A stretch of 64,000 nucleotides of DNA from a bacterium EF100-94H03 bin56 (GTDB taxonomy: Bacteria > Pseudomonadota > Alphaproteobacteria > SP197). Positions 3,389 to 63,492 of this stretch are shown here, one piece after another; within the stretch, counting starts at the first letter, position 1; the number at the start of each line of letters is the position of its first letter. The notes beneath the pieces are model-generated. The model was not told the origin of the DNA. It did not search any database and saw only the letters and a list, made by a program, of their open reading frames with translations. Location: assembly GCA_002238685.1 (NCBI GenBank), contig MPMV01000004.1, positions 1-64,000 of the forward strand. Direction: 5' to 3'. The position numbers and the translations under genes were made by a program.

Positions 3389-4414
3389 CTAGTAATCATT
3401 CAAATCACTAAGCAATGATGTCTTTTGACTTCTCTCCATCCATGAGGATTGAACTGCATTTTGCATAAATTTCTTGATTTCATTATCCGAAAAACCGCCG
3501 GACGCTTGTGCCGAGGCAAGCGCAGACGATAACCAACCACTCCCCAGTTGGACAGGGTCGTCCGAGTTCAACGAGATGAGCACTCCCATATCCAGCATTC
3601 CCCGAATACATTCCATTGTCTTATCCGGACAAGATTCCCCTGCCGAATAGAATGTGGGGCATGCTGCCACGCCGATACCTCTTTCGAGAATGTCCTGGGA
3701 CAACGATTCATCAAAGTATGCATCCAACCCATGATCCAGACGTTCGACTCTCAACAGATTAAGGCAATCTCGAATATGATTCAGTGAATTTGGTTGGTGT
3801 ACATCGCAATGTGAAGTCAGATGATATCCTTGCGCGCGCGCCAGATCAAACAATGGCAAGAATTTGCGAGGGAAATTGGAGACTTCAAAGTTGTCCAAAC
3901 CGACAGCTACAATATCCTCACGGTACTTCTCTGCATTGGACAATGTTTCAACAGCCGACTCGAGCGAGAAATCTCTTTGTAGATTCATGATCCATTGAGA
4001 TCTGACATGAAAACGCTCAAGAGCATCATCCCTGGCTTGACATAACGCCTCGATGCAACCCTCAAATGGAACGCCTTGTCGTACAGCCTGCTGAGGATCG
4101 AACATGATCTCCGCGTACTGAATGTTCTCTTGCTTGGCACGAGAGTAAAATGACATTGCTATTTCATAATAGTCTGTGTCTCTCCTGAGAGCGCCGCGAG
4201 ATGCGTCAAGGCATTCCAGGAAACTTCTCAAGCTTTCAGTGTCACTTGTTTTGTTCGAGTTCTGCAACGCAAGAATGTCGTCAGGTGTTTCATACGGGAG
4301 TTTGATGCCATTTCTGTCTGCAATATCGAACAACAGTTGGCCTTCGATTGTTCCCTCAATATGAATATGTAGCTCGATCTTGGGCATGCCCAATACATAG
4401 TCGGATATGGTCAT
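3389..4414 (-). CDS. Adenosine/adenine deaminase-like protein lacking the catalytic Glu
   Basis: A 341-residue TIM-barrel amidohydrolase of the adenosine deaminase family. It starts at the ATG at 4414, preceded by AGGAG. Zinc ligands are visible: HIH at residues 16-18, His202, and the aspartates in NSDDP near 284-287; His228 (LDHG) is also present. The family signature HAGE, whose Glu protonates the purine ring, reads HCDV at 202-205, so that acid is missing. FDPQ near 105 links it to the adenine-deaminase branch. The gene is clearly richer in A+T than its neighbours, which points to recent transfer. It could be an altered-specificity deaminase or an inactive relative. A canonical adenine deaminase lies at 62473-63492. 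Confidence 0.8.
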   Translation of the reverse strand: MTISDYVLGMPKIELHIHIEGTIEGQLLFDIADRNGIKLPYETPDDILALQNSNKTSDTESLRSFLECLDASRGALRRDTDYYEIAMSFYSRAKQENIQYAEIMFDPQQAVRQGVPFEGCIEALCQARDDALERFHVRSQWIMNLQRDFSLESAVETLSNAEKYREDIVAVGLDNFEVSNFPRKFLPLFDLARAQGYHLTSHCDVHQPNSLNHIRDCLNLLRVERLDHGLDAYFDESLSQDILERGIGVAACPTFYSAGESCPDKTMECIRGMLDMGVLISLNSDDPVQLGSGWLSSALASAQASGGFSDNEIKKFMQNAVQSSWMERSQKTSLLSDLNDY

Positions 4415-4514
4415 TTTGCTCCTATCTGCTGATAGTCGAATCAATTCATATTGTTAAAGGACTTGAGTTGACTTGGAATGGAACTTCACTTCCGCGCCAT
4501 TTGAGACAGTGCCT

Positions 4515-29038: not shown

Positions 29039-29491
29039 GTGGAACGGACGGCAACATACATGGAAGTCGCGCTCGCCGAGGCCGAGGCCGCCGCCAGGCG
29101 GGGTGAGCCTCCGGTGGGCGCCGTCGTCGTGCTGGACGGGGAGATTGTCGCGGCAGCCGGCAACCGTACGCGCGAGGACGCCGACCCCACCGCCCATGCG
29201 GAAATCATCGTCCTGCGGCAGGCCTGCCGGACACTGGGCCTCCACCGTCTCGACGGCGCCGATCTCCATGTCACCCTGGAACCCTGTCCCATGTGCGCCG
29301 GCGCCATCGCCGAAGCCCGCATCCGGCGTCTCTACTACGGAGCCGAGGACCCCAAGGGAGGCGCTGTCGACAACGGCGTGCGTCTCTTCGATCAACCGAC
29401 CTGCCACCACCGGCCCGAGGTCTATGGCGGCATCCTCGAAACCCGCTGCAGCGAACTCCTCAAGACCTTCTTTGCCGCCAGAAGATCATGA
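29039..29491 (+). CDS. tadA: tRNA-specific adenosine deaminase
   Basis: Deaminates A34 to inosine in tRNA-Arg(ACG). 150 residues. The zinc site is THE-like TAHAEIIVL (His and catalytic Glu) plus PCPMCAGAIAEARI (two Cys). GTG at 29039 is preferred because GGAAGG lies just upstream and the TadA helix begins shortly after; ATG 29060 is an alternative. Confidence 0.95.
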   Translation: MERTATYMEVALAEAEAAARRGEPPVGAVVVLDGEIVAAAGNRTREDADPTAHAEIIVLRQACRTLGLHRLDGADLHVTLEPCPMCAGAIAEARIRRLYYGAEDPKGGAVDNGVRLFDQPTCHHRPEVYGGILETRCSELLKTFFAARRS

Positions 29492-29536
29492 GACCGCACC
29501 GCAACGCCCGCTGACCAGGAGTGTTGCGGTGCGGTC
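29492..29536. terminator. Bidirectional terminator between tadA and binding-protein array
   Basis: GACCGCACCGCAAC at 29492-29505 is perfectly complementary to GTTGCGGTGCGGTC at 29523-29536, a 14-bp stem with a 17-nt loop starting one base after the tadA stop. It sits between convergent genes, so it can serve both strands. Confidence 0.75.
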
Positions 29537-29563
29537 GTCAAGGAACGTGTGTCGCTGACCTCG

Positions 29564-30688
29564 CTAGAGGCCGGCGATGATGTCTTCCCAGGTCTCCAGC
29601 ATCAGCTCATCGATCTCCGGATTGAGCGGAACCCAGAAACTCGTGCCCTCCATCAACCTCACGGGGTCGTCGTAGCCCAGTGCCACGAGTGTTTCGCGAT
29701 CCACCAGATCGAACGACTTCGCGTTGCCATGACCGTAGCCATAGGACTCGATGAGGAACTTTCCGGTCTCCGGAGTGAGCCAGGCATTGATGAAATCGTA
29801 AGCCATCCCCTCGTCGTTCTCGGCTGCGGAAAGATGAACGAGGCCGCAGGCCCAGCCGAAGGCGCCTTCCTTCGGTGCGGCAAAGGCCACCGGAATGCCC
29901 TGGTTGAGGAGATTGACGAGGGCCTCGTTCCAGGCATAGGCGACAACGCACTCGCCCGACGCCATGGCCTGCTCCATGTCGGTCTGGCTGTCCCAGTAGA
30001 ACCTGACGAGACCACGCTGCTGGCGCGCCAGTTCGGCCGATTCCGCGATCTGCTCGGGCGTCGGGTTCATCGGATCGTAGCCCAGCATCTTGAGAGCGAT
30101 CGAGAGGCTCGCAGAGTCATTCCGGCCGCAGATGCGACCGCTGTAGCGCTCATCGAACATCATGCCCCAGGACTCCTCGCCCTCGACGATGTCGGTCCGG
30201 TAGATCACCGAAGACAGTCCGAAATCGGTGATGGCCATGTAGACATCGCCATCGATCACCGCACCGTTCATGGTGTGCAGTGCCGGGAACATGTCGTCCC
30301 AGGCGTCGATGCGGGAGACGTCGAGCGGCTTGATCACCCCAGCGTCATGCCAGCGGGGAACACCGTCCACACAGGGATGAGCAAGATCGGCAACGAAGCC
30401 GGCCCGGATCTTCTGCAGACCATCCTCCGCCGAGGCGAAGATCGACCAGTCCGGAGAACTCCCGTGCTTGTCGACAAAGGACTGGTGCAGCTCCGCCACC
30501 TCGTAGGCCGACCACGTGAAGTAGTGGATCATGTCGCCCTCGGCCGCCCTCGCAGGCGAAACCAGTGACGAGGCGACCGGCGCCAGCCCCGCCGCTGCTG
30601 CGACAGCCATGAAGTCACGGCGGTCAATTTCGCGGTTGAGCATCTTCCTGTGCAGCTGCTCGACTCGCGGCTTTCTCAACACATGCAT
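29564..30688 (-). CDS. Tat-exported PotD-like solute-binding protein, copy 1
   Basis: A 374-residue periplasmic receptor of the spermidine/putrescine type. It has a twin-arginine signal (DRRDFMAVAAAAGLAPVASS). The mature part starts near AEGDMIHYFTWSAYE and shows PotD-family patterns such as YMAITDFGLSSVIYRTD. The true start is ATG 30688, matching the other two copies, with AAGGAG upstream. No permease or ATPase of this system is nearby, so it must work with a transporter encoded elsewhere. The three copies share nearly identical signal regions but differ in ligand-side loops. Confidence 0.9.
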   Translation of the reverse strand: MHVLRKPRVEQLHRKMLNREIDRRDFMAVAAAAGLAPVASSLVSPARAAEGDMIHYFTWSAYEVAELHQSFVDKHGSSPDWSIFASAEDGLQKIRAGFVADLAHPCVDGVPRWHDAGVIKPLDVSRIDAWDDMFPALHTMNGAVIDGDVYMAITDFGLSSVIYRTDIVEGEESWGMMFDERYSGRICGRNDSASLSIALKMLGYDPMNPTPEQIAESAELARQQRGLVRFYWDSQTDMEQAMASGECVVAYAWNEALVNLLNQGIPVAFAAPKEGAFGWACGLVHLSAAENDEGMAYDFINAWLTPETGKFLIESYGYGHGNAKSFDLVDRETLVALGYDDPVRLMEGTSFWVPLNPEIDELMLETWEDIIAGL

Positions 30689-30729
30689 CGTCAAGTCACT
30701 CCTTGATGTTGTCCTGCAGATGAACCGGT

Positions 30730-30789
30730 TCTAGAGTCCGGCAACGACATCCTCCCATATCTCGCACATGAGCTGGCTGATCTCCGGCG
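30730..30789 (-). pseudogene. Remnant C-terminus of a fourth PotD-like copy
   Basis: Immediately after the stop of copy 2, the minus strand encodes PEISQLMCEIWEDVVAGL and a stop. This matches the end of copy 3 (PEITQLMYEIWEDVVAGL) rather than copies 1 and 2 (IDELMLETWEDIIAGL). It marks a lost or recombined fourth gene. Confidence 0.8.
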
Positions 30790-31914
30790 CTAGAGGCCGG
30801 CAATGATGTCTTCCCAGGTCTCCAGCATCAGTTCGTCGATCGCCGGATCCATGGGAACCCAGAAAGCGGTCCCGCTCATCAGTCGCTCGGGATCGTCATA
30901 GCCCAGAGCAACGAGAGTCTCCCGGTCCACGAGATCGAACGACTTGATGTTGCCGTGACCATAGCCGTAAGCCTCAATGAGGAACTTGCCGGTCTCCGGC
31001 GCCAGCCACGCGTTGATCAAGTCGTAGGCCATCTGCTCGTCGTTCTGGGCCGCGGAAAGGTACACGAGGCCACAGGCCCAGCCAAAGGCGCCTTCCTTCG
31101 GCGCCGCAAAGGCAACCGGAATCCCCTGGTCGAGGAGATTGACGAGAGCCTCGTTCCAGGCATAGGCCACGACGCACTCGCCGGAGGCGATGGCCTGTTC
31201 CATGTCGGTCTGGCTGTCCCAATAGAACCTGACGAGTTCACGCTGCTTGCGCGCCATGTCAGCGGCTTCCATGACCTGTTCAGGCGTGGGATTCATCGGG
31301 TCATAACCCAGAATCTTGAGCGGAACGAAGATGCTGGCCGTGGTGTTCCTGGCGCAGACGCGGCCCGCGTACTTCTCATCGTACATGTACATCCAGGACT
31401 CCTCGCCCTCGACGATATCGGTGCGATAGATCATCGATGACAGCCCGAAGTCCGTGATCGCCATGTAGACGTCGCCATCGATCGTCGCACCGTTCATGGT
31501 GTGGAGCGCTGGGAACATGTCGTCCCAGTGATCGATGCGCGAGATATCCAGCGGCTGGATTACCCCGGCGTCATGCCAGCGCGGTACATTGTCGACACAG
31601 GGATGGGCAAGATCGGCAACGAAGCCGGCGCGGATCTTCTGCAGTCCGTCCTCCGCCGAGGCGAAGATCGACCAGTCCGGGGACCGACCGTACTTGTCGA
31701 AGAAGGGCTGGTGAAGTTCCACCGGTTCGTAACCCGACCAGGTGAAGTAGTGGATCATGTCGCCCTCAGCCGCCCTCGCAGGCGAAACCAGTGACGAGGC
31801 GACCGGCGCCAGCCCCGCCGCTGCTGCGACAGCCATGAAGTCACGGCGGTCAATTTCGCGGTTGAGCATCTTCCTGTGCAGATGCTCGACACGCGGTTTT
31901 CTCAACACATGCAT
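30790..31914 (-). CDS. Tat-exported PotD-like solute-binding protein, copy 2
   Basis: Same length (374 residues) and architecture as copy 1, with an identical Tat region (RRDFMAVAAAAG). Differences cluster in the mature domain, for example YTWSGYEPVELHQPFFDKYG-like changes and MYMYDEKYAGRVCARNTTAS in place of MMFDERYSGRICGRNDSAS. This suggests altered ligand preference. AAGGAG precedes the ATG at 31914. The leader between copies is also repeated (CTGCAGATGAACCGGTTCTA). Confidence 0.9.
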   Translation of the reverse strand: MHVLRKPRVEHLHRKMLNREIDRRDFMAVAAAAGLAPVASSLVSPARAAEGDMIHYFTWSGYEPVELHQPFFDKYGRSPDWSIFASAEDGLQKIRAGFVADLAHPCVDNVPRWHDAGVIQPLDISRIDHWDDMFPALHTMNGATIDGDVYMAITDFGLSSMIYRTDIVEGEESWMYMYDEKYAGRVCARNTTASIFVPLKILGYDPMNPTPEQVMEAADMARKQRELVRFYWDSQTDMEQAIASGECVVAYAWNEALVNLLDQGIPVAFAAPKEGAFGWACGLVYLSAAQNDEQMAYDLINAWLAPETGKFLIEAYGYGHGNIKSFDLVDRETLVALGYDDPERLMSGTAFWVPMDPAIDELMLETWEDIIAGL

Positions 31915-31956
31915 CGTCAGGTCACTCCTTGTTGTTGTCCTGCAGATGAACCGGTT

Positions 31957-33081
31957 CTAGAGACCGGCAACGACATCCTCCCATATCTCGTACATGAGCT
32001 GGGTGATTTCAGGATCGACCGGAATCCAGAAATTGGTACCCTCCATCAGGCCCACGGGGTCGTCATAGCCCAGCGCAATGAGGGTCTCGCGATCCACCAG
32101 ATCGAACGACTTGATGTTGCCGTGACCATAGCCATAGGTCTCGATGAGGTACTTGCCGGTCTCCGGCGCCAGCCACGCGTCGATGAAATCGTAGGCCATC
32201 TGTTCGTCATTCTGGGCCGCCGCAAGGTACACGAGACCGCAGGCCCAGCCGAAGGCGCCCTCCTTGGGCGTCGCGAATGCGACCGGAATACCCTGGTCGA
32301 GGAGATTGACCAGCGCCTCGTTCCAGGCATAGGCAATGACGCACTCGCCGGTGGCCACCGCCTGTTCCATGTCCGTCTGGCTCTCCCAGTAGAAACGGGC
32401 CAGCGGGCGTTGCTTGCGGCCCATCTCGGCGGCTTCCCTGACCTGATCGGCCGTCGGGTTCATGGGATCGTAACCCAGAAGCTTGAGTGCGATGGAGAGG
32501 TTCGCCGTACCGGCATTGGGACAGATTCGACCGGCATATCGCTCGTCGAACAGCATGTTCCAGGTTTCTTCACCCTCGTAGATATCGGTGCGGTAGATGA
32601 CTGACGACAGCCCGAAGTCCGTAATCACCATGTAGACGTCGCCGTTGATCGTCGCTCCGTTCATGGTGTGGAGTGCGGGGAACATGTCATCCCAGTGACT
32701 GATGCGCGAGGTATCCAGCGGCTGCAGGACACCCGCATCGTGCCAGCGCGGCACGCTGTCGACGCAGGGATGCGCAAGATCGGCAGCGAAGCCGGCCCGA
32801 ATCTTCTGCAGGCCATCCTCCGACGAGGCGAAGAGCGACCAGTCCGGCGATTGGCCGTACTTGTCGACAAAGGGCTGGTGCAGTTCCGGCACCTCGTAGG
32901 CCGACCATGTGAAGTAGTGGATCATGTCGCCCTCGGCCGCCGTCACAGGCGAAACCAGTGACGGGGCAACCGGCGCCAGACCCGCCGCCGCGGCGGCAGC
33001 CAGGAAATCGCGGCGCCCGATTTCGCGGTTGAGCATTTTCCTGTGCAACTGCTCGACACGTGGTTTTCTCATGACATGCAT
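31957..33081 (-). CDS. Tat-exported PotD-like solute-binding protein, copy 3
   Basis: First gene of the array in transcription order (374 residues) and the most divergent: signal GRRDFLAAAAAAGLAPVAPS, and C-terminus ITQLMYEIWEDVVAGL. GAGGAGGG precedes the ATG at 33081. It is divergent from the Liv-type operon, and the 187-bp gap at 33082-33268 must carry both promoters. Confidence 0.9.
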   Translation of the reverse strand: MHVMRKPRVEQLHRKMLNREIGRRDFLAAAAAAGLAPVAPSLVSPVTAAEGDMIHYFTWSAYEVPELHQPFVDKYGQSPDWSLFASSEDGLQKIRAGFAADLAHPCVDSVPRWHDAGVLQPLDTSRISHWDDMFPALHTMNGATINGDVYMVITDFGLSSVIYRTDIYEGEETWNMLFDERYAGRICPNAGTANLSIALKLLGYDPMNPTADQVREAAEMGRKQRPLARFYWESQTDMEQAVATGECVIAYAWNEALVNLLDQGIPVAFATPKEGAFGWACGLVYLAAAQNDEQMAYDFIDAWLAPETGKYLIETYGYGHGNIKSFDLVDRETLIALGYDDPVGLMEGTNFWIPVDPEITQLMYEIWEDVVAGL

Positions 33082-33268: not shown

Positions 33269-34408
33269 ATGAGAGCGCTTGTGACAGCCGGTGCGGCACT
33301 GGTTCTTTGTGCCGCGTCGGTGACCGCGTCGGCCGATGGCCTCAAAGTGGGCATGATCACGACCCTGTCGGGTGGTGGCTCGGCTCTCGGAGTGGATGTA
33401 CGCGACGGATTCATGCTGGCTCTTGACCAGTCGGGGCGCACCGACATTGACGTCGTGATCGAGGACGACCAGCGCAAGCCCGAGATCGCGGTCCAGATCG
33501 CCGACAAGATGGTGCAGTCCGACAACGTCGATGTGCTGACCGGCATCATCTGGTCGAACCTCGCCATTGCCGTGGTGCCCTCGGTGGTGCGCCAGGGAAA
33601 GTTCTATCTCTCGCCCAATGCCGGACCCTCGAAACTCGCGGGTGAGGGCTGTCACGAGAACTACTTCAATGTCGCCTGGCAGAACGACAACCTGCATGAG
33701 GCCGCCGGCGGCCATGCCAACGACGCCGGTTTCGCGAAGTCCTTCATCCTGGCTCCGAACTATCCTGCCGGACACGATGCACTGACCGGCTACAAGAGGT
33801 TCTTCACCGGCGAGATCGCGGCCGAGGTCTACACCGAACTCGGCCAGACCGACTATGCCGCGGAAATCGCGCAGATCCGCGCATCGGATGCCGACAGCGT
33901 CTTCTTTTTCCTTCCCGGCGGCATGGGGATCTCGTTCATGAAGCAGTACGCCGGATCGGGCGTCGACCTTCCGGTGGTTGGTCCCGCGTTTTCTTTCGAC
34001 CAGGGCATCCTCAATGCCGTGGGCGAGGCCGCACTGGGTGTGAGGAACACGTCGCAGTGGTCGAAAGATCTCGACAATGCCGCCAACCAGGCATTCGTAG
34101 CCAGCTTCCAGGAAGCCTACGGTCGCCTGCCGTCGCTCTATGCCTCACAGGGGTTCGATACCGCCAATCTTCTGATCAGCGCTCTCGACAAGGCCGATGT
34201 CAGCGACGCCGACGCCTTCCGCGAGGCACTCCGGGCCGCCGACTTCACCTCCGTGAGGGGCGACTTCATGTTCGGTCCCAACCATCACCCGGTGCAGGAC
34301 ATCTACGTGCGCGAGGTGGTCATGGAGGACGGTGTCCTCACCAACCGTATTGTTTCGCTCGCCCTCGAGGATCACGCGGACGCCTACGCCGGCGAGTGTT
34401 CGATGTAA
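33269..34408 (+). CDS. Liv-type ABC transporter substrate-binding protein
   Basis: A 379-residue periplasmic receptor of type-1 fold (LivK/branched-chain amino-acid family). Signal peptide MRALVTAGAALVLCAASVTA ends with ASA. The mature part begins LKVGMITTLSGGGSALG, typical of COG0683. SD GAAGGAG precedes the ATG. It heads a complete five-gene SBP-permease-permease-ATPase-ATPase operon. The ligand may not be branched-chain amino acids; relatives take up aromatic acids, amides or urea. Confidence 0.9.
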   Translation: MRALVTAGAALVLCAASVTASADGLKVGMITTLSGGGSALGVDVRDGFMLALDQSGRTDIDVVIEDDQRKPEIAVQIADKMVQSDNVDVLTGIIWSNLAIAVVPSVVRQGKFYLSPNAGPSKLAGEGCHENYFNVAWQNDNLHEAAGGHANDAGFAKSFILAPNYPAGHDALTGYKRFFTGEIAAEVYTELGQTDYAAEIAQIRASDADSVFFFLPGGMGISFMKQYAGSGVDLPVVGPAFSFDQGILNAVGEAALGVRNTSQWSKDLDNAANQAFVASFQEAYGRLPSLYASQGFDTANLLISALDKADVSDADAFREALRAADFTSVRGDFMFGPNHHPVQDIYVREVVMEDGVLTNRIVSLALEDHADAYAGECSM

Positions 34409-37953: not shown

Positions 37954-38925
37954 TCATCGCTCCTTGACATAAGGCACCCCCAGGGCCTTGGGCGGGATCG
38001 CGCGGCCGATGAAACCGGCAAGTAGCACCACGGTCAGAACGTAGGGCAGCGCCTGCACGAACTGCACCGGAACCTCGCCGACACCGGGAAGGTCGACCCC
38101 TTGCAGCCGGATTGCCGTGGCGTCGAGAAAACCGAAGAGCAGACAGGCGAGCATGGCCGGATACGGACGCCACTTGCCGAAGATCAGGGCGGCGAGCGCA
38201 ATGTAGCCCTTGCCCGCCGTCATGTCGTTGATGAAGCTCGCGCTCTGGGCGAGCGACAGGTAGGTTCCGGCCATACCGCATGCGACTCCGGTGCACAGCA
38301 ATGCCCGATAGCGCAGTGCGATGATCGAGATTCCCGCCGTTTCCACCGACTGCGGATTCTCGCCCGCGGCCCGCAGGCGCAGCCCGAAGCGGGTCCGGTA
38401 AAGCACCCAGGCCACGGTCGGCACCGCCAGGAAAGCGAGATAGACCATCAGGTTGTGGCCGCTCAGGAGCTCGCTGTAGAGCGTGCCCACTCCCGGCACG
38501 TCCCGCAACGGCGCCGCGCCTGGCCATTCGAGTGGCAGGAAGCGCGCTTCGCCCGGCAGTTGGGGGGTGCGCCCACCCTGGGCGAACCAGGCGATGCCGA
38601 GCACCGCGGTCACGCCGGAGACGAGGATGTTGAGCGCCAGACCGGACACCACCTGGTTGCCACGGTGGGTGATGCAGGCGTAGCCATGGACCAGGGCGAG
38701 TAGCACGGAGGCGCCGATGCCCGCCGCCAGCCCCGCCCACGGCGACCCCGTGAACGTCGCCGCGGTGGCGGCGGCGAAGGCCGCTCCCAGCATCTTTCCC
38801 TCAAGTCCGATGTCGATGATGCCCGAACGCTCGGAGAACAGACCCGCCAGGGCAGCCAGAATGAGCGGCGCGGAAAGGCGCAGCGTCGAATCGAGCACCA
38901 GCGCCAGCAGGGTGAGGAGTTCCAC
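37954..38925 (-). CDS. BMP/Nup-type nucleoside ABC permease 2 (NupQ-like)
   Basis: About 323 residues, very hydrophobic. It starts with LLTLLALVLDSTLRLSAPLI and contains LAALAGLFSERSGIIDIGLE, the signature of the second permease of basic-membrane-protein-type nucleoside transporters. The GTG at 38925 (or 38931) overlaps the upstream permease stop. It is the last gene of bmpA-ATPase-permease-permease. Confidence 0.9.
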   Translation of the reverse strand: MELLTLLALVLDSTLRLSAPLILAALAGLFSERSGIIDIGLEGKMLGAAFAAATAATFTGSPWAGLAAGIGASVLLALVHGYACITHRGNQVVSGLALNILVSGVTAVLGIAWFAQGGRTPQLPGEARFLPLEWPGAAPLRDVPGVGTLYSELLSGHNLMVYLAFLAVPTVAWVLYRTRFGLRLRAAGENPQSVETAGISIIALRYRALLCTGVACGMAGTYLSLAQSASFINDMTAGKGYIALAALIFGKWRPYPAMLACLLFGFLDATAIRLQGVDLPGVGEVPVQFVQALPYVLTVVLLAGFIGRAIPPKALGVPYVKER

Positions 38926-38926
38926 G

Positions 38927-40039
38927 TCAGCCACCGCTGCTGCGCAGCAGCACCGCACGCACGGCGGGGACAAACATGAACTCCAGCGCCCCGGCGAACA
39001 GGATCACAAGCCCCTGAATCACCACCACCATGTCGCGGGTGATCCCGGGGATTTCGAACGAGAGCTCCGCCCCGCCCTGGTACAGCGCACCAAACAGGAG
39101 CGAAGCAAGCACGATGCCCACCGGATGACCTCGGCCCATCAGTGCCACCGCGATGCCGGCAAAGCCGTATCCGGCGGTGAACTCCAGCACCAGTCGATGC
39201 TGCACCCCCATCAGCTCGTTCAGGCTCATGCAGCCAGCCAGAGCACCGGAGACCACCATCGCGACGATGATCTGACGGGGCGGCGAGATGCCGCCGTAGA
39301 GGGCTGCCGGCGGACTGGCGCCCGCGGTCCTCAGGCGATAGCCGGCCCGGGTGTGCCACATGAACACCCACACAACCGCACAGCACAACAGCGCCCAGAG
39401 GAACGACAGGTTCAGCGGAGAGGCCGCAATGTCGATGCCCATCGCACCCAGCGCCTCGTGCATCAGCGGGAGTCTCGCGTGCAGGGCGAAGTCCCTGCTT
39501 TCCGGCTCCATGGAGCCGGGCCGGGACATGACGTTGACCAGCAGGTAGGCCATCACCGCAGCAGCGATGAAATTGAACATGATGGTGGTGATGACGATGT
39601 GGCTGCCCCGGTACGCCTGCAGCCACGCCGGCACGAAGGCCCAGGCCGCGCCGAACAGCGCAGCCCCCACGACTGCAGCGGGCACGATCAGGGCGAAGGG
39701 CAGAAAATCCAGGTACAGGCACACCAGCGCCATGCCGAGTCCGCCGATGTAGGCCTGGCCCTCACCTCCGATGTTGAACAGGCCGCAGTGAAAGGCCACG
39801 GCCACCGCCAGCCCGGTGAAGATGAAGTTGGTGGCGTAGAACAGGGTGTAGCCGATTGCCTCCTGGAAGCCGAAGGCTCCCCACACGAGCATTCGTACCG
39901 CCTCCCACGGGTTCTCGCCGATCAGCAACACGATCAGGCCGGAAATCGCGAAGGCGGCCAGCAGGTTGAGCGCCGGCAGCAACCCCAGGACGGCCCAGCG
40001 GGGCAGCCCGGCCGCCGGTCCCGTGGCCACGATGCTCAC
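38927..40039 (-). CDS. BMP/Nup-type nucleoside ABC permease 1 (NupP-like)
   Basis: A 370-residue permease. Contains FYATNFIFTGLAVAVAFHCG followed by LFNIGGEGQ, the family signature, and ELMGVQHRLVLEFTAGYGFA later on. Eight or more membrane helices. Overlaps the ATPase stop by 4 bases. Confidence 0.9.
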   Translation of the reverse strand: MSIVATGPAAGLPRWAVLGLLPALNLLAAFAISGLIVLLIGENPWEAVRMLVWGAFGFQEAIGYTLFYATNFIFTGLAVAVAFHCGLFNIGGEGQAYIGGLGMALVCLYLDFLPFALIVPAAVVGAALFGAAWAFVPAWLQAYRGSHIVITTIMFNFIAAAVMAYLLVNVMSRPGSMEPESRDFALHARLPLMHEALGAMGIDIAASPLNLSFLWALLCCAVVWVFMWHTRAGYRLRTAGASPPAALYGGISPPRQIIVAMVVSGALAGCMSLNELMGVQHRLVLEFTAGYGFAGIAVALMGRGHPVGIVLASLLFGALYQGGAELSFEIPGITRDMVVVIQGLVILFAGALEFMFVPAVRAVLLRSSGG

Positions 40040-41601
40040 GGAGCGCTGCGCTCCCGACCCGCAGCGCCGGCCATGAGCAGTCCCAGCTCTCGCTCCGTAG
40101 CCCGGCCGGCCGGAAACTCGCCGGCAATGGTGCCGCCGAACATGACCAGAATACGGTCCGAGAGCCCCATGATCTCGTCAAGTTCGGCGGAGATCAGCAG
40201 AACCGCCCTGCCCGCATCGCGCATGGCCACCAGCCGACGATGGATGAACTCGATGGCGCCAATGTCGACACCACGAGTTGGCTGCCCTACCAGCAACACC
40301 AGCGGATCACGCTCGATTTCCCGAGCCAGCACCAGTTTCTGCTGGTTGCCACCGGAAAACGCCGCGGTGATCCGGCGAGGATCGGCGGGGCGGACGTCGA
40401 AGGCGTCCATCTTGCCCGCGGTGTCGCGCGAGACCGCGGCCCAGTCGAACAGCGCGGCCCGGCGATAGCGTGGATCGTCGTGATGGCCGAGGATGGCGGA
40501 TTCCCGGGCTTGGAACGGCATGACCAGGCCCATGCGCCGACGATCCTCGGGAACGTGGGCGAGCCCGAGGCGGCGCCGGAGACGGCCGCCGGCTCCCACC
40601 GGCTTGCCGGCAACCAGAATTCGTCCCCCGACGACCGGCCGGAGCCCGGCCAGCGCCTCCATCAGCTCGCTCTGACCGTTGCCCGCCACGCCGGCAATGC
40701 CGACGATCTCCCCCGCCCGCACCGAAAAGGAGACGTTGCGTACACTTGACAGGCCTCGGTCGTCGCGGACCCGCAGATTCTCGACCGACAGCAGATCGCG
40801 TCCCGGCTTTACCGCCTCTTTCTCGACCTGCGACAGCACACGGCGCCCGACCATCAGCTCGGCGATCTCGGCGACGGTGGTGGTGGCGGTGTCGCGATGG
40901 GCCACCATCCGGCCTTGGCGCATGACCGAAATCCTGTCGGTCACCGCCATGATCTCGCGCAGCTTGTGGGTGATCAGGACTATCGTCTTTCCCTGCCCCT
41001 TGAGCCGGCGCAGGATACGGAACAGGTGGTCCGCCTCCTGCGGAGCGAGCGTGCCAGTCGGTTCGTCCAGGACGAGTATCTCGGCGCCCCGATAGAGGGC
41101 CTTCAGTATCTCCACCCGTTGCTGCAGGCCTACCGGCAGATCACCGACCAGGGCGTCCGGAGGCACCTCCAGCGCATACTCGCTCGCCAGTTCCGCCAGT
41201 TCCCCGCGAGCCCGGTGTGTACCCGGCGCAAGCAGCCGACCGCCCTCGGCCCCCAGGATGACGTTCTCGACCACCGTGAAGGTGTCCACCAGCATGAAGT
41301 GCTGGTGGACCATGCCGATGCCGGCAGCGATTGCGTCTTCGCTGCCCCGAATGGCCACCGGCCTTCCGGCGATGCGAATCTCGCCCCTGTCAGCCCTGTG
41401 GAAGCCGTACAGGATGCTCATCAGTGTGGACTTGCCGGCGCCGTTCTCGCCGACGATTCCGTGAATGGTGCCGGGAGCAACCGACAGGCTCACGTCCCGG
41501 TTGGCGTGAACGGCACCGAACCACTTGTTGATGCGGAGCAACTCGACAGCCGGCGCGCCGGCTGTCGGCGTCGTGTTCCGCCGTTTCTCCGAGGAGGACA
41601 C
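40036..41601 (-). CDS. BMP/Nup-type nucleoside ABC ATPase (double cassette)
   Basis: A 521-residue fused ATPase. Cassette 1: Walker A GENGAGKST, signature DLPVGLQQRVEILKAL, Walker B EILVLDEPTGTL. Cassette 2 has a degenerate Walker A (GVAGNGQSE), signature FSGGNQQKLVLAREI and a Walker B with LLVGQPTRGVD where the Glu is Gln, as is normal in sugar/nucleoside transporters of this class. GTG start 5 bases after the bmpA stop. Confidence 0.95.
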   Translation of the reverse strand: MSSSEKRRNTTPTAGAPAVELLRINKWFGAVHANRDVSLSVAPGTIHGIVGENGAGKSTLMSILYGFHRADRGEIRIAGRPVAIRGSEDAIAAGIGMVHQHFMLVDTFTVVENVILGAEGGRLLAPGTHRARGELAELASEYALEVPPDALVGDLPVGLQQRVEILKALYRGAEILVLDEPTGTLAPQEADHLFRILRRLKGQGKTIVLITHKLREIMAVTDRISVMRQGRMVAHRDTATTTVAEIAELMVGRRVLSQVEKEAVKPGRDLLSVENLRVRDDRGLSSVRNVSFSVRAGEIVGIAGVAGNGQSELMEALAGLRPVVGGRILVAGKPVGAGGRLRRRLGLAHVPEDRRRMGLVMPFQARESAILGHHDDPRYRRAALFDWAAVSRDTAGKMDAFDVRPADPRRITAAFSGGNQQKLVLAREIERDPLVLLVGQPTRGVDIGAIEFIHRRLVAMRDAGRAVLLISAELDEIMGLSDRILVMFGGTIAGEFPAGRATERELGLLMAGAAGRERSAP

Positions 41602-41606
41602 CGCGT

Positions 41607-42602
41607 CTATCTTGCGGGGCAGTCGCCCTCGGTCACGTAGTCGTGGACCTTGATCTCACCGGAGACGATCTGCCTTGCGGCCTCATCGGCGGCGGCCTTC
41701 ATGGCCGGAGTCACCAGAGCCTCGTTGTGCGCGTCGAGTGACCATCCGACACCGTTCTCCTTCAGTCCCAGGATGCGCACGCCGGAACGCCATTCATCCC
41801 GTCGCGCGGAGTCGAAGACATCGTAGGCCGCCACGTCCACGCGCTTCAGCATGGAGGTGAGTATGTGCCCGGGGTGAAGGTGGTTCTGGTTGGAATCCAC
41901 GCCGATGGCGAGCCGGCCTGCGTCCGCCGCCGCCTGGAGCACCCCGAGCCCCGTACTGCCGGCGGCGTGGTAGACGACGCTGGCGCCGCGGTCGAACTGG
42001 GACTTGGCGAGCTCGCCACCCTTTACCGGGTCATTCCAGGCCGCGCCGGTCGTGCCGGTCATGTTCTGGAAAACCCGGATACCGGGCCTGGCGTGACGAG
42101 CGCCCAGCACGTAGCCGCAGGCGAACCGGCGAATCAGCGGCACGTCCATTCCGCCGACAAAGCCGATGCTGTCACCATCCGCCGCCATCGCGGCCAGGAC
42201 GCCGACGACGAACGAGCCCTCGTGCTCCTTGAACACGATGGACTGCACGTTGGGCTGATCGACCACTGCATCGATGATCGCAAATCGGGTGTCGGGGAAG
42301 CCGGGCGCCACCTTGTCCAGGGCCGACGCGTACTGAAAGCCCACGGCAAGGATGGGATCCAAGCCGCGGCGGGCGAAACTGCGCAGCGCCTGCACCCGCT
42401 GGGAATCGGTCTGCACCTCGAACTCGCGGAAGTCGATTCCGGTGTCGGCCGTGAACTTCGCAGCGCCGTCGTAGACCCCCTCGTTGAAGGACTTGTCGAA
42501 CTTGCCGCCGAGGTCGTAGACAACAGCGGGCGCAATTTCGCCCGCTGTGGCGAAACTCGAGGCGAACAGGGCCGCGAACACGGCGAGGCACAGGCGTTTC
42601 AT
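41607..42602 (-). CDS. BMP-family periplasmic nucleoside-binding protein
   Basis: A 331-residue receptor. Signal peptide MKRLCLAVFAALFASSFATA precedes the mature sequence, which opens with APAVVYDLGGKFDKSFNEGV, the typical BMP/Med opening. No lipobox Cys, so it is soluble. GGGAG precedes ATG 42602. It heads a complete four-gene importer that fits purine-nucleoside uptake; the window also encodes an adenine deaminase. Confidence 0.9.
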   Translation of the reverse strand: MKRLCLAVFAALFASSFATAGEIAPAVVYDLGGKFDKSFNEGVYDGAAKFTADTGIDFREFEVQTDSQRVQALRSFARRGLDPILAVGFQYASALDKVAPGFPDTRFAIIDAVVDQPNVQSIVFKEHEGSFVVGVLAAMAADGDSIGFVGGMDVPLIRRFACGYVLGARHARPGIRVFQNMTGTTGAAWNDPVKGGELAKSQFDRGASVVYHAAGSTGLGVLQAAADAGRLAIGVDSNQNHLHPGHILTSMLKRVDVAAYDVFDSARRDEWRSGVRILGLKENGVGWSLDAHNEALVTPAMKAAADEAARQIVSGEIKVHDYVTEGDCPAR

Positions 42603-43023
42603 GCGCGTGGCTCCCTTGTTTGGATTCGAACGCATACGTTCGGGGAATCATACCCGGAAGTACCGCAAGTGCATTGAAAAACGCAGGGCCGCCAAACGGT
42701 TTCCAGGCAAGTACACGACGGCAGCGGCGGAACCCTCCAACACCTGGTCCCGCTCCGGCCATCGACTTCTGCCGCGTGCCGCGCCGTGGAGTACCGGTGC
42801 TGCCGATGATAGGGAAGAAGGCTACGATGCGGTTGCCGAACACGACCGGCACGAAGAAGTTCCGTGACAGCTCGGAGGGGAGGCAGCTGTTCGCCAGCGC
42901 GCACATGTCGCCGATGTCGATCGAGACCATCGTGTCCGGCGACAGGCCGCCCTGACTCGTGCTCCATGTGAGCCCGATGCGGTTGCACTTGTCGTGGCAC
43001 GTCTCAGTCCCGAGAATGGACCG
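42603..43023. other. Promoter region and unresolved 330-bp stretch
   Basis: Upstream of the BMP receptor. Both strands between about 42780 and 42970 read like protein: plus gives TMRLPNTTGTKKF and ends SIETIVSGDRPP; minus gives ELSRNFFVPVVFGNRIVAFF. I recognise neither, and no ribosome-binding site decides between them. Possibly a gene remnant. Confidence 0.3.
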
Positions 43024-57222: not shown

Positions 57223-58056
57223 ATGCCCGCCTCGCCACTGACGACCAGGGAGCAGCGTGACTCTCTTGAGAAGGACGGCGTCGTCTGCCTTCGCGGGGCC
57301 TTCGACCCTCGCTGGCTGGCTGTAGCGAGCGACGCCATCGACCAGGGCCTGGCGAACCCCGGCCCGATGTTCGTCGACTATTCGGCGGATACGAATCCCG
57401 GCACGTACTGCACGGACTTCTGGATCTGGCAGCAGGTGCCGGCGATGCGCGATTTCATCTTCGAATCGCCGGCCGCCCGGATCGCCGGCGAACTCATGGA
57501 CGTCCCTTCCGTCATGCTCGTGACCGACAACTGGCTCGTGCGCAAGGCCGGCGCCGTCAACCGTGCACCCTGGCATCACGATGCGCCGTATTTTGATCTC
57601 GACGGCACGTGGTGCGTGCTGTGGATGGCGCTGGAGCCGGTTGCCCGGGGTGAGGGCGTTACGGTTCTCAAGGGCTCCCATACCTGGAACAGGCACTTCA
57701 TGCCGGAGAGTTTCGCGGGTACCGGACCGAAAGCCGATCCCCACGGCATCTACGAGAGGACCCCCGACTTCTCACGTCTGAGTGAATACGGCGACCGGGT
57801 TGACTACACGCTCCAACCGGGAGACTGCCTCGTCTTCGATTCGCACACGGTCCATGGCGCACCGGACGCCACTCCGCCGCAGCGCACCATCAGGCGGCTC
57901 ACCATGCGCTTCGCCGACGGCGATGCCGTCTACCGACGGCGGGGGCCATGGACCCGCGACATGACGGATTTCCTGGAAGCGGAGCATGGACTCATCGAGG
58001 GTGGTCCCTACCGTTGCGACCTCCTGCCGATCCTCTGGGAACGGTGCCATGGCTGA
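57223..58056 (+). CDS. Phytanoyl-CoA dioxygenase (PhyH) family protein 1
   Basis: A 277-residue Fe(II)/2-oxoglutarate oxygenase. Iron ligands H118 and D120 in RAPWHHDAPYF, distal His in FDSHTVHGAPDA, then the Arg-rich 2-oxoglutarate region. GAGGAG precedes ATG 57223. Seven bp after ehuA, so part of the same operon. It lacks the long ectoine-hydroxylase motif F-x-WHSDFETWH, so it is not a standard EctD. Predicted to hydroxylate the imported compound or an intermediate. Confidence 0.85.
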   Translation: MPASPLTTREQRDSLEKDGVVCLRGAFDPRWLAVASDAIDQGLANPGPMFVDYSADTNPGTYCTDFWIWQQVPAMRDFIFESPAARIAGELMDVPSVMLVTDNWLVRKAGAVNRAPWHHDAPYFDLDGTWCVLWMALEPVARGEGVTVLKGSHTWNRHFMPESFAGTGPKADPHGIYERTPDFSRLSEYGDRVDYTLQPGDCLVFDSHTVHGAPDATPPQRTIRRLTMRFADGDAVYRRRGPWTRDMTDFLEAEHGLIEGGPYRCDLLPILWERCHG

Positions 58057-58852
58057 CGACGCTGCCCACCGCTACAGGCGGGACGGCTTCGCCTTTCCCT
58101 TCGATGCGGTCTCCAGGGTGAGGGCCCGCGAGGCGGCTACGCGCATCGAGAGGCTCACGGAGGAACCGCCGGCGGGTCTGCAGCATCCCTGGCGCATCAA
58201 GATGCACCTGCTCTGCGACTGGATCTTCGACCTCGCGACAGATGACGCCGTGCTCGACCGCGTCGAATCGGTCATCGGACCGGACATCCTTCTTCAGGCG
58301 GTTGATCTCTTCTGCAAGCCGCCCGGGGGACGACAGCACATCAACTGGCATCAGGACGCCAACTACTGGAATCTTGAGCCCTTCGAGATCTGCACGGCGT
58401 GGATCGCCCTCACCGACGCCCGTCCGGAGAATGGATGCATGCGGTTCATGGCGGGCACCCACGCACGCGACAAGCTCCGCCACCGGGAGACTCTTTCGGA
58501 AAGGAGCGCCCTCACCCGAGGTCAGGAAATCGCCCTCGACATGGATGAATCGCGCGCCGTCCCGGTCATCCTCGACGCTGGAGAGATGTCGCTCCACCAC
58601 TGTCTTCTGGCCCATGCGTCCGGCATCAACCGCACCGGATCGCCACGCATCGCCCTCGCGGTCCGCTTCCTGCCCGCTCATGTGCGCCAGACCGCCGGAC
58701 CGGGACTTTCCGCCATCCCGGTGCGCGGCAATGACACCGGACGGCATTTCATCCGCGACACGCCGCCTGACGGCAGTTTCACGGCGCGCGCGATCGCTGC
58801 GCATGCGAGGGCCATGACTCCCCACGCGGCGTCGGGATACGCCACAGCCTAG
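58049..58852 (+). CDS. Phytanoyl-CoA dioxygenase (PhyH) family protein 2
   Basis: A 267-residue paralogous-fold oxygenase. Ligands H101 and D103 in HINWHQDANYW; distal His in LHHCLLAHASG. Starts at ATG 58049, inside the end of gene 1 (8-base overlap), so the pair is translationally coupled and may act as a complex or in series. Its sequence differs strongly from gene 1, so they are not a recent duplication. Confidence 0.85.
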   Translation: MADDAAHRYRRDGFAFPFDAVSRVRAREAATRIERLTEEPPAGLQHPWRIKMHLLCDWIFDLATDDAVLDRVESVIGPDILLQAVDLFCKPPGGRQHINWHQDANYWNLEPFEICTAWIALTDARPENGCMRFMAGTHARDKLRHRETLSERSALTRGQEIALDMDESRAVPVILDAGEMSLHHCLLAHASGINRTGSPRIALAVRFLPAHVRQTAGPGLSAIPVRGNDTGRHFIRDTPPDGSFTARAIAAHARAMTPHAASGYATA

Positions 58853-58861
58853 AGGAGCCCG

Positions 58862-60067
58862 ATGACAACGGCCGCCTTCGATGAATCAGAGTACGCACAG
58901 CGCCGTGCCAGGGTTCGTCAACGCATGGACGAGACCGGGTTCGATCTTCTGATCTGCCAGGATCCGGCCAACATGCACTGGCTGACCGGCTTTGACGGAT
59001 GGTCGTTCTATACGCCGCAGGCTGTGCTGTTCCATCGCGACGACCAGTTTCCGGTGTGGTTCGGCCGCGCCCAGGACGCCCTTTCCGCCGCCATGACGAC
59101 GGATCTTCCCGACGACAACATCGTGGCATTCTCCGAACCCCTGGTTCACCACCCGGATCGCCATCCCTTCGACGAGTTGTGCGAACTGATCAGGCAGCGC
59201 GGCTGGAGTTCCGCGAGCATTGGCGTCGAACTGGACGCCCACTACTACACGGCAAGGGCCCATCGGCACCTCGTCGACGGACTGGGCGGCGCCCGGATTG
59301 CCGACAACCGCGAACTGGTGAACTGGGCGCGGCTGGTCAAATCGCCCGCGGAACTGTCGTACATGCGCGAGGCCGGCAGACTCGCGACAAGGGTCATGGA
59401 AAGGGCTCTGGAGCGCCTTCGCCCGGGGTCACCGCAAAAGGACATCATCGCGGAGGTCTATCACACGCAGATCAGCGGCCTCGACGACAGGCACGGTGAC
59501 TACACCAGCATTTGCCCGCTGATTCAGGTCGGGAATGGTACTGCGACGCCACACCTCACCTGGACGTCCGACGCCCTGCCTGATGAGGGGCTTGTGGTCA
59601 TGGAACTGGCCGCGGCCCGTCGCCATTACCACGCGCCAATCACCCGGACGGCGCATATCGGCACGCCGCCGCGTGACGTCGCCATGCTCGCGGAGACGAT
59701 CCTGGAGGGGCGCGCCGCGGAGCCGGTGGGGGAGGGCGGCGCCGCGGCGCTGCAGGCGGCCCGTCCCGGCGTGACGTGCGCCGAAGTGGAAGCCGTGTGG
59801 CAGGGCGTGCTCAACCGTCACGGCTACCGCAAGGAGAGCCGCGTGGGCTATTCCATCGGTCTCGGCTTTCCGCCCGACTGGGGAGAACGGACCGCCAGCC
59901 TGCGCCCCGGCGAAAACACCGTCCTCGAGGCCGGCATGTGTTTCCACTTCCAGTCAGGCATGTGGCTGGAGCGCTATGGTGCCGCAATCTCCGAATCCTT
60001 CGTCGTCACCGCCGACGGAGGCGAGCGACTTTGCAACGTAGAACGCGCACTCCACGTCATCACCTGA
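58862..60067 (+). CDS. M24 creatinase-fold hydrolase, ectoine hydrolase (DoeA/EutD)-like
   Basis: 401 residues, pita-bread fold. Metal-binding residues of true aminopeptidases are replaced: the first ligand block reads VMELAAARRHYHAPITRT instead of D...D, while Glu248 is kept, the position reported to attack the ectoine ring in EutD. GYSIGLGFPPDWGERTASLR and ERLCNVERALHV near the C-terminus match DoeA. So it probably opens ectoine or a cyclic amidine to an N-acyl diamino acid. GAGGAG precedes ATG 58862. Confidence 0.82.
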   Translation: MTTAAFDESEYAQRRARVRQRMDETGFDLLICQDPANMHWLTGFDGWSFYTPQAVLFHRDDQFPVWFGRAQDALSAAMTTDLPDDNIVAFSEPLVHHPDRHPFDELCELIRQRGWSSASIGVELDAHYYTARAHRHLVDGLGGARIADNRELVNWARLVKSPAELSYMREAGRLATRVMERALERLRPGSPQKDIIAEVYHTQISGLDDRHGDYTSICPLIQVGNGTATPHLTWTSDALPDEGLVVMELAAARRHYHAPITRTAHIGTPPRDVAMLAETILEGRAAEPVGEGGAAALQAARPGVTCAEVEAVWQGVLNRHGYRKESRVGYSIGLGFPPDWGERTASLRPGENTVLEAGMCFHFQSGMWLERYGAAISESFVVTADGGERLCNVERALHVIT

Positions 60068-60093
60068 CAGGCAGCGATCCACGGGAGGCCGCC

Positions 60094-61254
60094 ATGACCG
60101 CTCACCAGCCCTTTCCGCGCCAGGAACTCGATCGGCGCCTTGACAAGCTCCGCGACGCGATTGCGGACCGCGATCTGGACGGCCTTCTCGTCGCCAGTCC
60201 GGAGAACATCTACTACCTCACCGGTCTCGATCACTGGGGATTCTTCGCGACGCACATCCTCGTCGTGCCGCGCGACGGCGAACTCCGCCTCGTGGCCCGG
60301 GCGATGGAGCAGATTACGGTCACGAACCAGGTCGCCAATGCCGTGTTCCATGGCCACGCCGATGGCGAAGAGCCGGCGGACCATGTGCTCGAGGCGATGA
60401 CCCTGCTCGGAATTCGCGATGGCCGGGTCGCGCTCGAGGAGCGATCCCTGTTTCTCACGCCGTACACGGCAAGCCGCATCAAGGCGGGGGCGCCGGCGGC
60501 TGCATGGAGCGATGGCTCGGGCCTCGTCGATACCCTGCGGATGGTGAAGTCACCGCTCGAAGTCACCTATACGCGCCGCGCCGCGGAGGCGGCGGACGCC
60601 GGGACGCTGGCGGCAATCGATGCCATCCGCCATGGCGCAAGCGATCATGAGGTCGCGGGCGAATGCCAGCGCGCCCTGTGCCTGGCGGGCAGCGAGTATC
60701 CCGGTTTCGGGCCGTTCATCAGGCCGACCTCGAGACTTGGCGAGGAGCACACGACGTGGCGAGGCGAGACGTTCCGCAACGGCGAAGCCGTGTTCCTGGA
60801 GATCGGTGCGGCCTGCCGCAAGTACCAGGCGCCCATGGGCCGTCTGGTCTACGTCGGAAGCGCCCCTGCCGGCGTCGAACGCTCCGTCGGGATGGCCATC
60901 GACGCCATGGAGGCGATCGCTGCAGCGATCGTCCCGGGCGCGCGGGCCCGGGACGCCTATGCGGCGTGGAGGGATGTCGCAAGGAGCCACGGGCTCAAGG
61001 GCTACGAGCGGCATCACTGCGGCTACCTGACGGGGATCGGTTTTCCACCGAGCTGGACCGGAGGCTCCATGGTCACGAGTCTCGCACCCGATTCGGACCT
61101 GGAAATGAAGCAGGGAATGTCGTTTCACCTTCATTCCTGGTTCACCGACACGGACTGTGTCGACTACTTCATCTCCAACGCCGCCATCCTCACGGAAATG
61201 GGGTGCGAGATCCTCACCACGCGCTCACCCCAGACTCTCATCGTGCGCGCGTGA
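60094..61254 (+). CDS. M24 creatinase-fold hydrolase, second DoeA-like paralogue
   Basis: 386 residues. Opening NIYYLTGLDHWGFFATHILV, ligand block replaced as in its partner (FLEIGAACRKYQAPMGRLVY, with Glu236 kept), and HHCGYLTGIGFPPSWTG near the active-site His. It lacks the ERLCNV C-terminus of gene 1. GGGAGG precedes ATG 60094. Two different non-metal M24 enzymes side by side suggest two ring-opening or amide-splitting steps, or a heterodimer. It is the last gene of the operon. Confidence 0.8.
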   Translation: MTAHQPFPRQELDRRLDKLRDAIADRDLDGLLVASPENIYYLTGLDHWGFFATHILVVPRDGELRLVARAMEQITVTNQVANAVFHGHADGEEPADHVLEAMTLLGIRDGRVALEERSLFLTPYTASRIKAGAPAAAWSDGSGLVDTLRMVKSPLEVTYTRRAAEAADAGTLAAIDAIRHGASDHEVAGECQRALCLAGSEYPGFGPFIRPTSRLGEEHTTWRGETFRNGEAVFLEIGAACRKYQAPMGRLVYVGSAPAGVERSVGMAIDAMEAIAAAIVPGARARDAYAAWRDVARSHGLKGYERHHCGYLTGIGFPPSWTGGSMVTSLAPDSDLEMKQGMSFHLHSWFTDTDCVDYFISNAAILTEMGCEILTTRSPQTLIVRA

Positions 61255-62472: not shown

Positions 62473-63492
62473 TTACCCTTCCATCGCGGCAATCCGGTCG
62501 ATGCTGTCCAGATGCGTCTTCCTGGCCGGCGCGTCGAGGAATGAGCCTTCGATGGAATTCCGGGCCAGCGTCACCAGGTCCGCCGCCTCCAGTCCGAGCG
62601 CCTCGGCCACCGCCACGCAATTGTCCAGCAGATAGCCGCCGAAATAGGCCGGGTCGTCCGAGTTGACCGTCACCTTGAGACCCGCGTCGAGCATGCGTTT
62701 CAGCGGGTGTTGCTTCAGGTTCGCGACCCCGCCCAGCCGCAAGTTGGAGAGCGGGCACACTGTGAGGGTCATGCCCCGTTGGGCAAGACGGCGGACCAGC
62801 GCCGGGTCCTCCAGCGCGCGGTTGCCGTGGTCGATCCGATCCACCCGCAATCGGTCCACTGCGTCGGCGACGTAGGATGCCGGGCCCTCCTCGCCGGCAT
62901 GGGCGACGAGCCTGAGACCGGCCTCCCGCGCCGCGGCGAAGAGGCGCTCGAACCTGGCGGGCGGATTGTCCTTCTCCGTGGAGTCGAGGCCGAGGCCGGC
63001 GATCCGCTCGTCGGCGATATAGGGCTCGGCCTCGCGATAAGTGGCAAAGCCCTCGTCTTCGGTGAGATGGCGCAGGACGCACATGATGAGTAGCGAGGTG
63101 ATGCCGAACCGCTCGTGTCCCTCGGCGAGCCCAGCCAGGATGCCGTCCGCCACGGTCGTGAATGGGATGCCGCGCGCTGTGTGGCCTTGGGGATCGAAGA
63201 ACACTTCCACGTGAACCGCCCCGTCGGCGGCCACGCGCTCCAGATAGGCCAGGGTGAGCTCGTGGAAATCCTCTTCGGCGCGAAGAACGTCCATGCCCCG
63301 ATAGTAGATGTCCAGGAAGTCCTGCAGCCGGGTGAAACGGTAAGCGGCCCGAATCTCCTCGACCGAGCGGAACGGAATCTCGACCTTGTTCCTCGCGGCC
63401 AACCGAATCATCAGTTCCGGCTCAAGCGTTCCCTCCAGATGTAGGTGCAGCTCGGCCTTGGGTAGCGCCCGGAAATACGAACTCAAGTCCAT
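62473..63492 (-). CDS. Adenine deaminase (adenosine deaminase-fold, type 2)
   Basis: A 339-residue amidohydrolase. Zinc and catalytic residues intact: HLH at 16-18, HAGE at 198-201, DHG at 221-223, and VTVNSDDPAYFGG. The motif HVEVFFDPQGHTARGIPF is typical of Aah1/PA0148-type adenine deaminases, not true adenosine deaminases. GGAG precedes ATG 63492. It converts adenine to hypoxanthine. Together with the BMP importer it suggests purine scavenging. Confidence 0.88.
   Translation of the reverse strand: MDLSSYFRALPKAELHLHLEGTLEPELMIRLAARNKVEIPFRSVEEIRAAYRFTRLQDFLDIYYRGMDVLRAEEDFHELTLAYLERVAADGAVHVEVFFDPQGHTARGIPFTTVADGILAGLAEGHERFGITSLLIMCVLRHLTEDEGFATYREAEPYIADERIAGLGLDSTEKDNPPARFERLFAAAREAGLRLVAHAGEEGPASYVADAVDRLRVDRIDHGNRALEDPALVRRLAQRGMTLTVCPLSNLRLGGVANLKQHPLKRMLDAGLKVTVNSDDPAYFGGYLLDNCVAVAEALGLEAADLVTLARNSIEGSFLDAPARKTHLDSIDRIAAMEG

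Follow-up and report, generated by a model that had tools for sequence, protein, structure and literature searches.

The window analyzed here, the first 64,000 nucleotides (nt) of contig MPMV01000004.1 from the alphaproteobacterium EF100-94H03 bin56, contains an array of three adjacent genes for PotD-like binding proteins, designated c3, c2, and c1 in the order of transcription (Table 1). Our results suggest that c1 to c3 are functional receptors that belong, by fold, to the PotD/PotF family and act in the periplasm, exported by twin-arginine translocation (Tat) and lacking a dedicated adjoining transporter. Their ancestor appears to have left a catabolic gene cluster, settled beside a tadA-like deaminase gene, and multiplied there, and the proteins would bind non-polyamine ligands and serve an unlinked Pot-type ATP-binding cassette (ABC) importer. 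Taken as one explanation, this history and function seem to us reasonably probable from sequence comparison. The array lies on contig C8 of the source genome, G000, a 4.53-Mb draft of 102 contigs that is 98.45% complete and 4.2% contaminated; relatives are designated G001 and so forth, and contigs by C and a number.

Results

Relocation of the receptor gene from a catabolic cluster

A single ortholog, 64 to 68% identical to c3, is located in a catabolic gene cluster in G002, G003, G005, G008, G012, and G015; the ortholog in the cluster of G009 is truncated. The gene directly adjoins that for a Rieske oxygenase in G002, G003, G005, and G008, and in G002, G005, and G008 it lies between the Rieske gene and a cold-shock-type gene, which are 1,433 to 4,405 nt apart. 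The genomes with an array at tadA (G000, G001, G007, and G006) have kept the Rieske (70 to 71% identity), no. 35, FAD-oxidase (66 to 67%), sulfatase (66 to 68%), and cold-shock-type genes of this cluster on a contig other than that of the array (C91 in G000), and a gap of 46 to 49 nt is found at the expected position of the receptor gene, which is absent. Synteny of the mutL-rsmD-rsuA-gatase-tadA block is preserved in G005, G008, and G012, but these genomes have no receptor gene there. Because the cluster of the array genomes has this gap and the tadA locus of the relatives lacks a receptor gene, we conclude that the receptor gene was relocated to the tadA locus and then multiplied. In the phylogenetic tree, the array clade (100/100) is nested in the clade of cluster receptors (100/100). 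The receptor gene and tadA are about 26 to 67 kb apart on one contig in G005, G008, and G012, so the move may have been a short one.

The history that we propose would begin with a single receptor gene in the catabolic cluster, where it still stands beside the Rieske oxygenase gene in several relatives. In one lineage, the cluster no longer has the receptor gene, whose descendants adjoin tadA, and the array there varies between two and three genes through tandem duplication, recombination, and loss.

Probable duplication scar and history of the array

The interval between c2 and c1 measures 101 nt: 2 nt are followed by a 57-nt stretch, which reads PEISQLMCEIWEDVVAGL-stop, and by the 42-nt spacer. 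An earlier note on this window had described the 57 nt as 18 codons matching the end of c3 and had taken them for the fossil of a fourth gene. The match is real, with 52 of 57 positions identical, compared with 30 of 57 for the best 57-mer outside the array on both strands of the window. The start-to-start spacing is 1,226 nt for c2-c1 versus 1,167 nt for c3-c2, c1 and c2 differ at 4 of their initial 168 nt, and the two spacers differ at 2 of 42 positions. The spacings, the scar match, and the similarity of spacers and heads fit a single tandem duplication of 1,226 nt, which would make the scar and the near-identical c1 and c2 heads one tract. Most simply, the fragment would be the left edge of a tandem-duplicated unit with its breakpoint inside the c3 tail and not a dead gene; a fourth gene is not needed, since such a duplication leaves the same fragment.

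The sequence of c1 is a mosaic, with a head like that of G000 c2, a center like G006_c1, and last codons again like c2. Synonymous divergence (dS) between c1 and c2 is 0.08 in codons 1 to 50 and 0.63 to 0.80 beyond, which indicates that the body of c1 is not recent. Over nt 1 to 165, c1 shares 15 sites with c2 to the exclusion of G006_c1 and 2 with G006_c1 to the exclusion of c2; over nt 451 to 675, the corresponding counts are 12 and 45 (Fisher P of about 8e-7). Two orders of events would account for this pattern: a c1-type allele may have overwritten the second duplicate, or an old c1 may have received a new head and new upstream sequence. The near identity of the signal regions noted earlier applies to c1 and c2 and not to c3, for which dS over codons 1 to 50 is 0.42 to 0.46.

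Among the four genomes of the genus with a tadA-side array, G000 has three genes and G001 and G007 have c3 and c2; in G006, c1 at the same locus is preceded by a c3-type tail at the contig edge. The genes group by type in the tree, c3 with G001_c3 and G007_c3 (support 100/99) and c2 and c1 as listed in Table 1, which indicates that the three types are older than these species. One type has probably disappeared from each genome with two genes, unless types were exchanged between species. The differing two-gene states at one locus and the mosaic c1, brought out by the uneven dS and site counts along the genes, bear out the earlier view that copy number has changed here by recombination.

Divergence of the three copies and selection

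Codons 166 to 235 form the main variable region among c1 to c3. Nonsynonymous divergence (dN) between the G000 paralogs is 0.21 to 0.25 in this region versus 0.07 to 0.11 elsewhere past the leader, and ortholog dN in the same codons is 0.006 to 0.018 for c2 and c3, as would be expected of a region that determines specificity and is conserved thereafter. The frame of the binding pocket is identical among the three proteins save for A/G61. Since the loop of residues 187 to 197 differs among the copies but is kept within each ortholog line, the copies have probably diverged in fine specificity. The difference among them is located around this loop; the ligand-side loops had been said to differ in general, which holds for the loop around residues 187 to 197, but the variation falls mainly in the one region. 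The earlier note had also raised the objection that the copies might not be expressed. Overall dN/dS between orthologs is 0.08 to 0.15, which shows that all three gene types are maintained and speaks against silent copies.

Orphan status and the wider receptor family

No Pot-type (TOBE_2) ATPase gene was found on contig C8, and the permease gene (PF00528) nearest to the array, which belongs to an amino-acid ABC operon, lies at a distance of 22 kb. As regards partners of a matching type, the array therefore has no adjoining permease or ATPase, as described earlier. The divergent neighbor is an operon for a different type of ABC transporter, equipped with a receptor gene of its own; this liv operon was considered as a partner and rejected for that reason. 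Pot-type ABC genes were likewise not found near the single-copy orthologs in the relatives, so the orphan status is old.

The array makes up only a small fraction of an extensive expansion of orphan receptors. G000 has 28 receptors at least 31% identical to c1, which were compared with 11 more distant ones. None of the 28 family members has a TOBE_2 ATPase gene within 3 kb. A PF00528 permease gene within 3 kb is absent for 24 of the 28, whereas it is present for 8 of the 11 distant receptors (Fisher P = 0.0009). All 16 genomes searched within the bacterial family carry such receptors, from 4 to 28 each (E below 1e-60). Another closely similar pair of family receptors, with one gene between them, is located at L074 (G000:C48:214232-217665). 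Several family receptors of G005, G010, G011, and G002 contain in-frame stops, which are pseudogenes or sequencing errors. No paper on this receptor family was found in the literature searched.

Binding pocket and ligand

The pocket of PotF comprises a proximal part (S38, D39, and D247), an aromatic box (W37, W244, and F276), and a distal part (S85, S87, A182, E185, D278, and L348), and D39, D247, D278, and E185 are conserved to at least 96% among 250 polyamine systems (PMC8666671). In a profile alignment, these four carboxylates correspond to A/G61, A256, C281, and A193 of c1 to c3, and W37, W244, and F276 correspond to W59, W253, and W279, so that the aromatic box is kept. Among 27 compared members of G000 (c1 and c2 left out), W59 is found in 27, W253 in 24, W279 in 25, and G61 in 25. 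Because all four polyamine-binding carboxylates are lost, a polyamine is an unlikely ligand of these proteins; the designation PotD-like stands for the family (SBP_bac_8) but not for the ligand. Genes for a Rieske oxygenase and for an FAD oxidase of the DAO family are found in the ancestral cluster, and this context, together with an aromatic box without carboxylates, suggests a betaine-like or N-methylated ligand.

A candidate shared importer

Elsewhere in the genome, where the earlier note had proposed to look for an orphan potABC-like locus, a conserved Pot-type module linked to family receptors is located at G000:C11:89-91 kb. It contains an aminotransferase-like gene, an ATPase gene, two permease genes, and a GST gene, and no receptor gene was recognized within it. 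The closest G000 paralog of the array (C11:85360; 45% identity) lies downstream of this module. Orthologous modules (61 to 96%) are present in most of the 16 genomes and are near a family receptor in eight examined genomes (G000, G007, G008, G005, G002, G012, G004, and G015). Two tandem receptors stand beside the module in G002, G004, and G008, and G002 and G004 have another ABC operon with two superfamily receptors in tandem; the tandem cases in these three genomes indicate that several receptors can adjoin one ABC module. A module near C48:62 kb, considered as another receptor-less candidate, was set aside because by eye, not by Pfam, it seems to have its own receptor, and a module at C33:118 kb ends near the contig edge.

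The array receptors would thus bind related non-polyamine ligands with different fine specificities and deliver them to an ABC importer of the Pot type whose genes lie elsewhere, the C11 module being the best candidate.

Array genes and flanking sequences

As described earlier, three complete 374-codon open reading frames stand in a row on the minus strand. The products share 87% (c1/c2) and 81% (c1/c3 and c2/c3) protein identity and match Pfam SBP_bac_8 with 68 to 76 bits against a cutoff of 27 (E of 1e-18 to 7e-21). Their best NCBIfam equivalogs are PotD and PotF, but at 55 to 62 bits against cutoffs of 582/636. The twin-arginine leader model TIGR01409 is passed by c1 and c2 and narrowly missed by c3 (15.9 versus 16.7), and paired arginines occupy positions 23 and 24 in 26 of 27 compared family members of G000. 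The start of c3 is preceded by a purine-rich stretch similar to the AAGGAG of c2 and c1. A promoter scan gave a single match, on the opposite strand and no more than expected by chance.

A long G+C-rich inverted repeat (gaccgcaccgcaac ... gttgcggtgcggtc; window 29492-29537) lies between the convergent tadA and c1 genes and is possibly a bidirectional terminator; an altered, similar version is present in G001, G007, and G006. Farther off, inspection by eye revealed a tandem pair of PhyH-like dioxygenase genes followed by a tandem pair of creatinase/Xaa-Pro-peptidase-like genes (57223-61254), which adjoin an amino-acid ABC operon. Adenosine-deaminase-like genes were seen at both ends of the window (3389-4444 and 62473-63492); the intervening sequence includes a BMP-type nucleoside ABC operon (37954-42635).

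Table 1. Features of the receptor array and its flanks (window positions)
Feature	Position	Strand	Remarks
tadA-like deaminase gene flanking the array	29049..29491	+	Locus receptor-free in G005, G008, and G012
Second copy of the inferred 1,226-nt unit	29562-30787	-	From start-to-start spacings
c1, receptor gene 1	29564..30688	-	374 aa; mosaic; clade with G006_c1, support 98/92
c1-side 42-nt spacer with AAGGAG ribosome-binding site	30689..30730	-	40/42 identical to c3-c2 spacer
Putative 57-nt duplication scar (18 codons and stop from a c3-type tail)	30731..30787	-	52/57 identical to c3 tail
Inferred 1,226-nt duplication unit (57 nt of c3 tail, spacer, c2, and 2 nt past its stop)	30788..32013	-	From start-to-start spacings
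c2, receptor gene 2	30790..31914	-	374 aa; clade with G001_c2 and G007_c2, support 100/98
c3-c2 42-nt spacer with AAGGAG ribosome-binding site	31915..31956	-	Similar spacer in G001 and G006
c3, first receptor gene in transcription order	31957..33081	-	374 aa; SBP_bac_8; twin-arginine leader; same-locus orthologs in G001 and G007
c3 codons 187-197, variable loop	32491..32523	-	Homologous codons differ in c2 and c1
livJ-like receptor gene of divergent branched-chain amino-acid ABC operon	33269..34408	+	By type no partner

Discussion

Several observations weigh against the explanation given above. In G012 and G014, the ortholog adjoins a different gene (no. 34) and not the Rieske gene. The Rieske protein scores far under the NCBIfam cutoff for glycine-betaine monooxygenase (GbcA), the alignment has a gap at the E185 loop, and the ligand is deduced from distant homology; an AlphaFold model (15 sequences) has a mean pLDDT (predicted local distance difference test) of 50.6, leaving the pocket to rest on the sequence alignment. 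A close C11-type permease was not found in G011, which is 100% complete and has 18 family receptors, or in G014, so the C11-type module cannot be the sole partner. At L112 (G003:C10:276000-286000), a C11-type module has no family receptor nearby, and G003 is the genome with the fewest receptors (4). With these exceptions in G011, G014, and G003, a single universal hub is not supported. The proposal that the array shares one transporter remains plausible through the conserved module linked to family receptors, but two receptor-rich relatives lack that module.

Alternative origins of the scar and c1 have to be weighed. The scar could be what is left of a true fourth gene, X, if deletion removed the body of that gene from an earlier c3-c2-X-c1 array. 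In G006, c1 is indeed immediately preceded by a c3-type tail, and the split of the three types before that of the species makes larger ancestral arrays possible. We nevertheless regard a fourth gene as unlikely: the 1,226-nt tandem duplication yields the fragment in one step, no four-gene array was found in any relative, and the 2 nt that follow the c2 stop (CG) agree with the 3' flank of c1 (CTAGCGAGG; CTAGCG) and not the spacer start (AA/AG) that a deletion of X would leave, a weak clue. Alternatively, c1 and its junction could have arisen as an assembly artifact if the metagenome bin combines two strains, as might be suspected from the contamination of the bin and from the resemblance of c1 to the G006 allele and of c2 to the G001 and G007 allele. 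This is highly improbable, however, in that the 3' end of c2 joins sequence sharing no word at which an assembler could cross over, and the scar, the spacer, and the c1 head carry variants of the c3 and c2 of G000 itself and not those of the relatives. Tandem duplication within the array is thus the origin that we prefer.

The function of the array is open to other readings as well. A role of c1 to c3 as conventional polyamine receptors for a potABC encoded elsewhere would agree with their best PDB and NCBIfam matches, PotF and PotD, but the replacement of all four carboxylates conserved at 96% or more, at sites that differ almost family-wide, leaves this reading very little room. The proteins might instead be sensors, like the PotD homolog NspS, which signals through MbaA, since PotD-like proteins without a permease are known as sensors (PMC9993111) and no permease is linked here. 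We consider this improbable. The nspS gene is coupled to mbaA, whereas no GGDEF/EAL sensor gene was recognized beside the array (tadA and livJ) or in the clusters of the relatives, Pfam having been run on part of the neighbors, and several members of the same family are located in or beside ABC modules. Transport by way of an unlinked Pot-type importer accordingly remains our preferred reading. This raises the broader possibility, which we hold only tentatively and think rather doubtful, that one such importer in this bacterial family is a hub for some two dozen scattered Tat-exported receptors, each derived from a catabolic cluster and tuned by one specificity loop. If so, duplication and relocation of receptor genes would suffice to add new nutrients.

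Orphan receptors are common and their partners mostly unknown; here, a receptor can be traced from a catabolic cluster to a new locus at which it multiplies. Its probable specificity region emerges from the sequence, and there is a specific candidate for the importer, which makes the hub idea directly testable. Our results also caution against annotating this large receptor family as polyamine transport.

Expansions of orphan receptors are already known from the Bug proteins of Bordetella and the OppA proteins of Borrelia, and the present case is a Pot-family variant of them. What is new is the relocation out of a catabolic cluster; the reading of the scar and the evidence against polyamines are the most useful results besides. 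The array proteins share with PotD and PotF the Pfam family, the best PDB homologs, a nearly full-length alignment, and the aromatic box (W37, W244, and F/W276), but differ from them in the twin-arginine leader, the lack of a linked potABC, the replacement of four carboxylates, and the many paralogs per genome. As with NspS, a PotD-like protein occurs without a permease, but a sensor coupled to it as MbaA is to NspS was not recognized beside the array. In Bordetella, many paralogous periplasmic Bug receptors lack nearby membrane partners, and sharing of transporters has been proposed (PMC11452294). Both sets are large and paralogous, mostly without a linked membrane component, but Bug proteins are of the TctC type and belong to tripartite tricarboxylate transporters (TTT), whereas the array proteins are SBP_bac_8 receptors of the Pot/ABC type without a Pfam match to TctC. 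Borrelia burgdorferi OppA1 to OppA5, encoded partly in tandem and partly by unlinked orphan genes, all supply a single ABC system (PMC5736914). The present array has the same combination of tandem receptor genes and unlinked orphan receptors, but OppA proteins belong to an oligopeptide family, and the array is remote from Pot-type ABC genes, its partner being a candidate.

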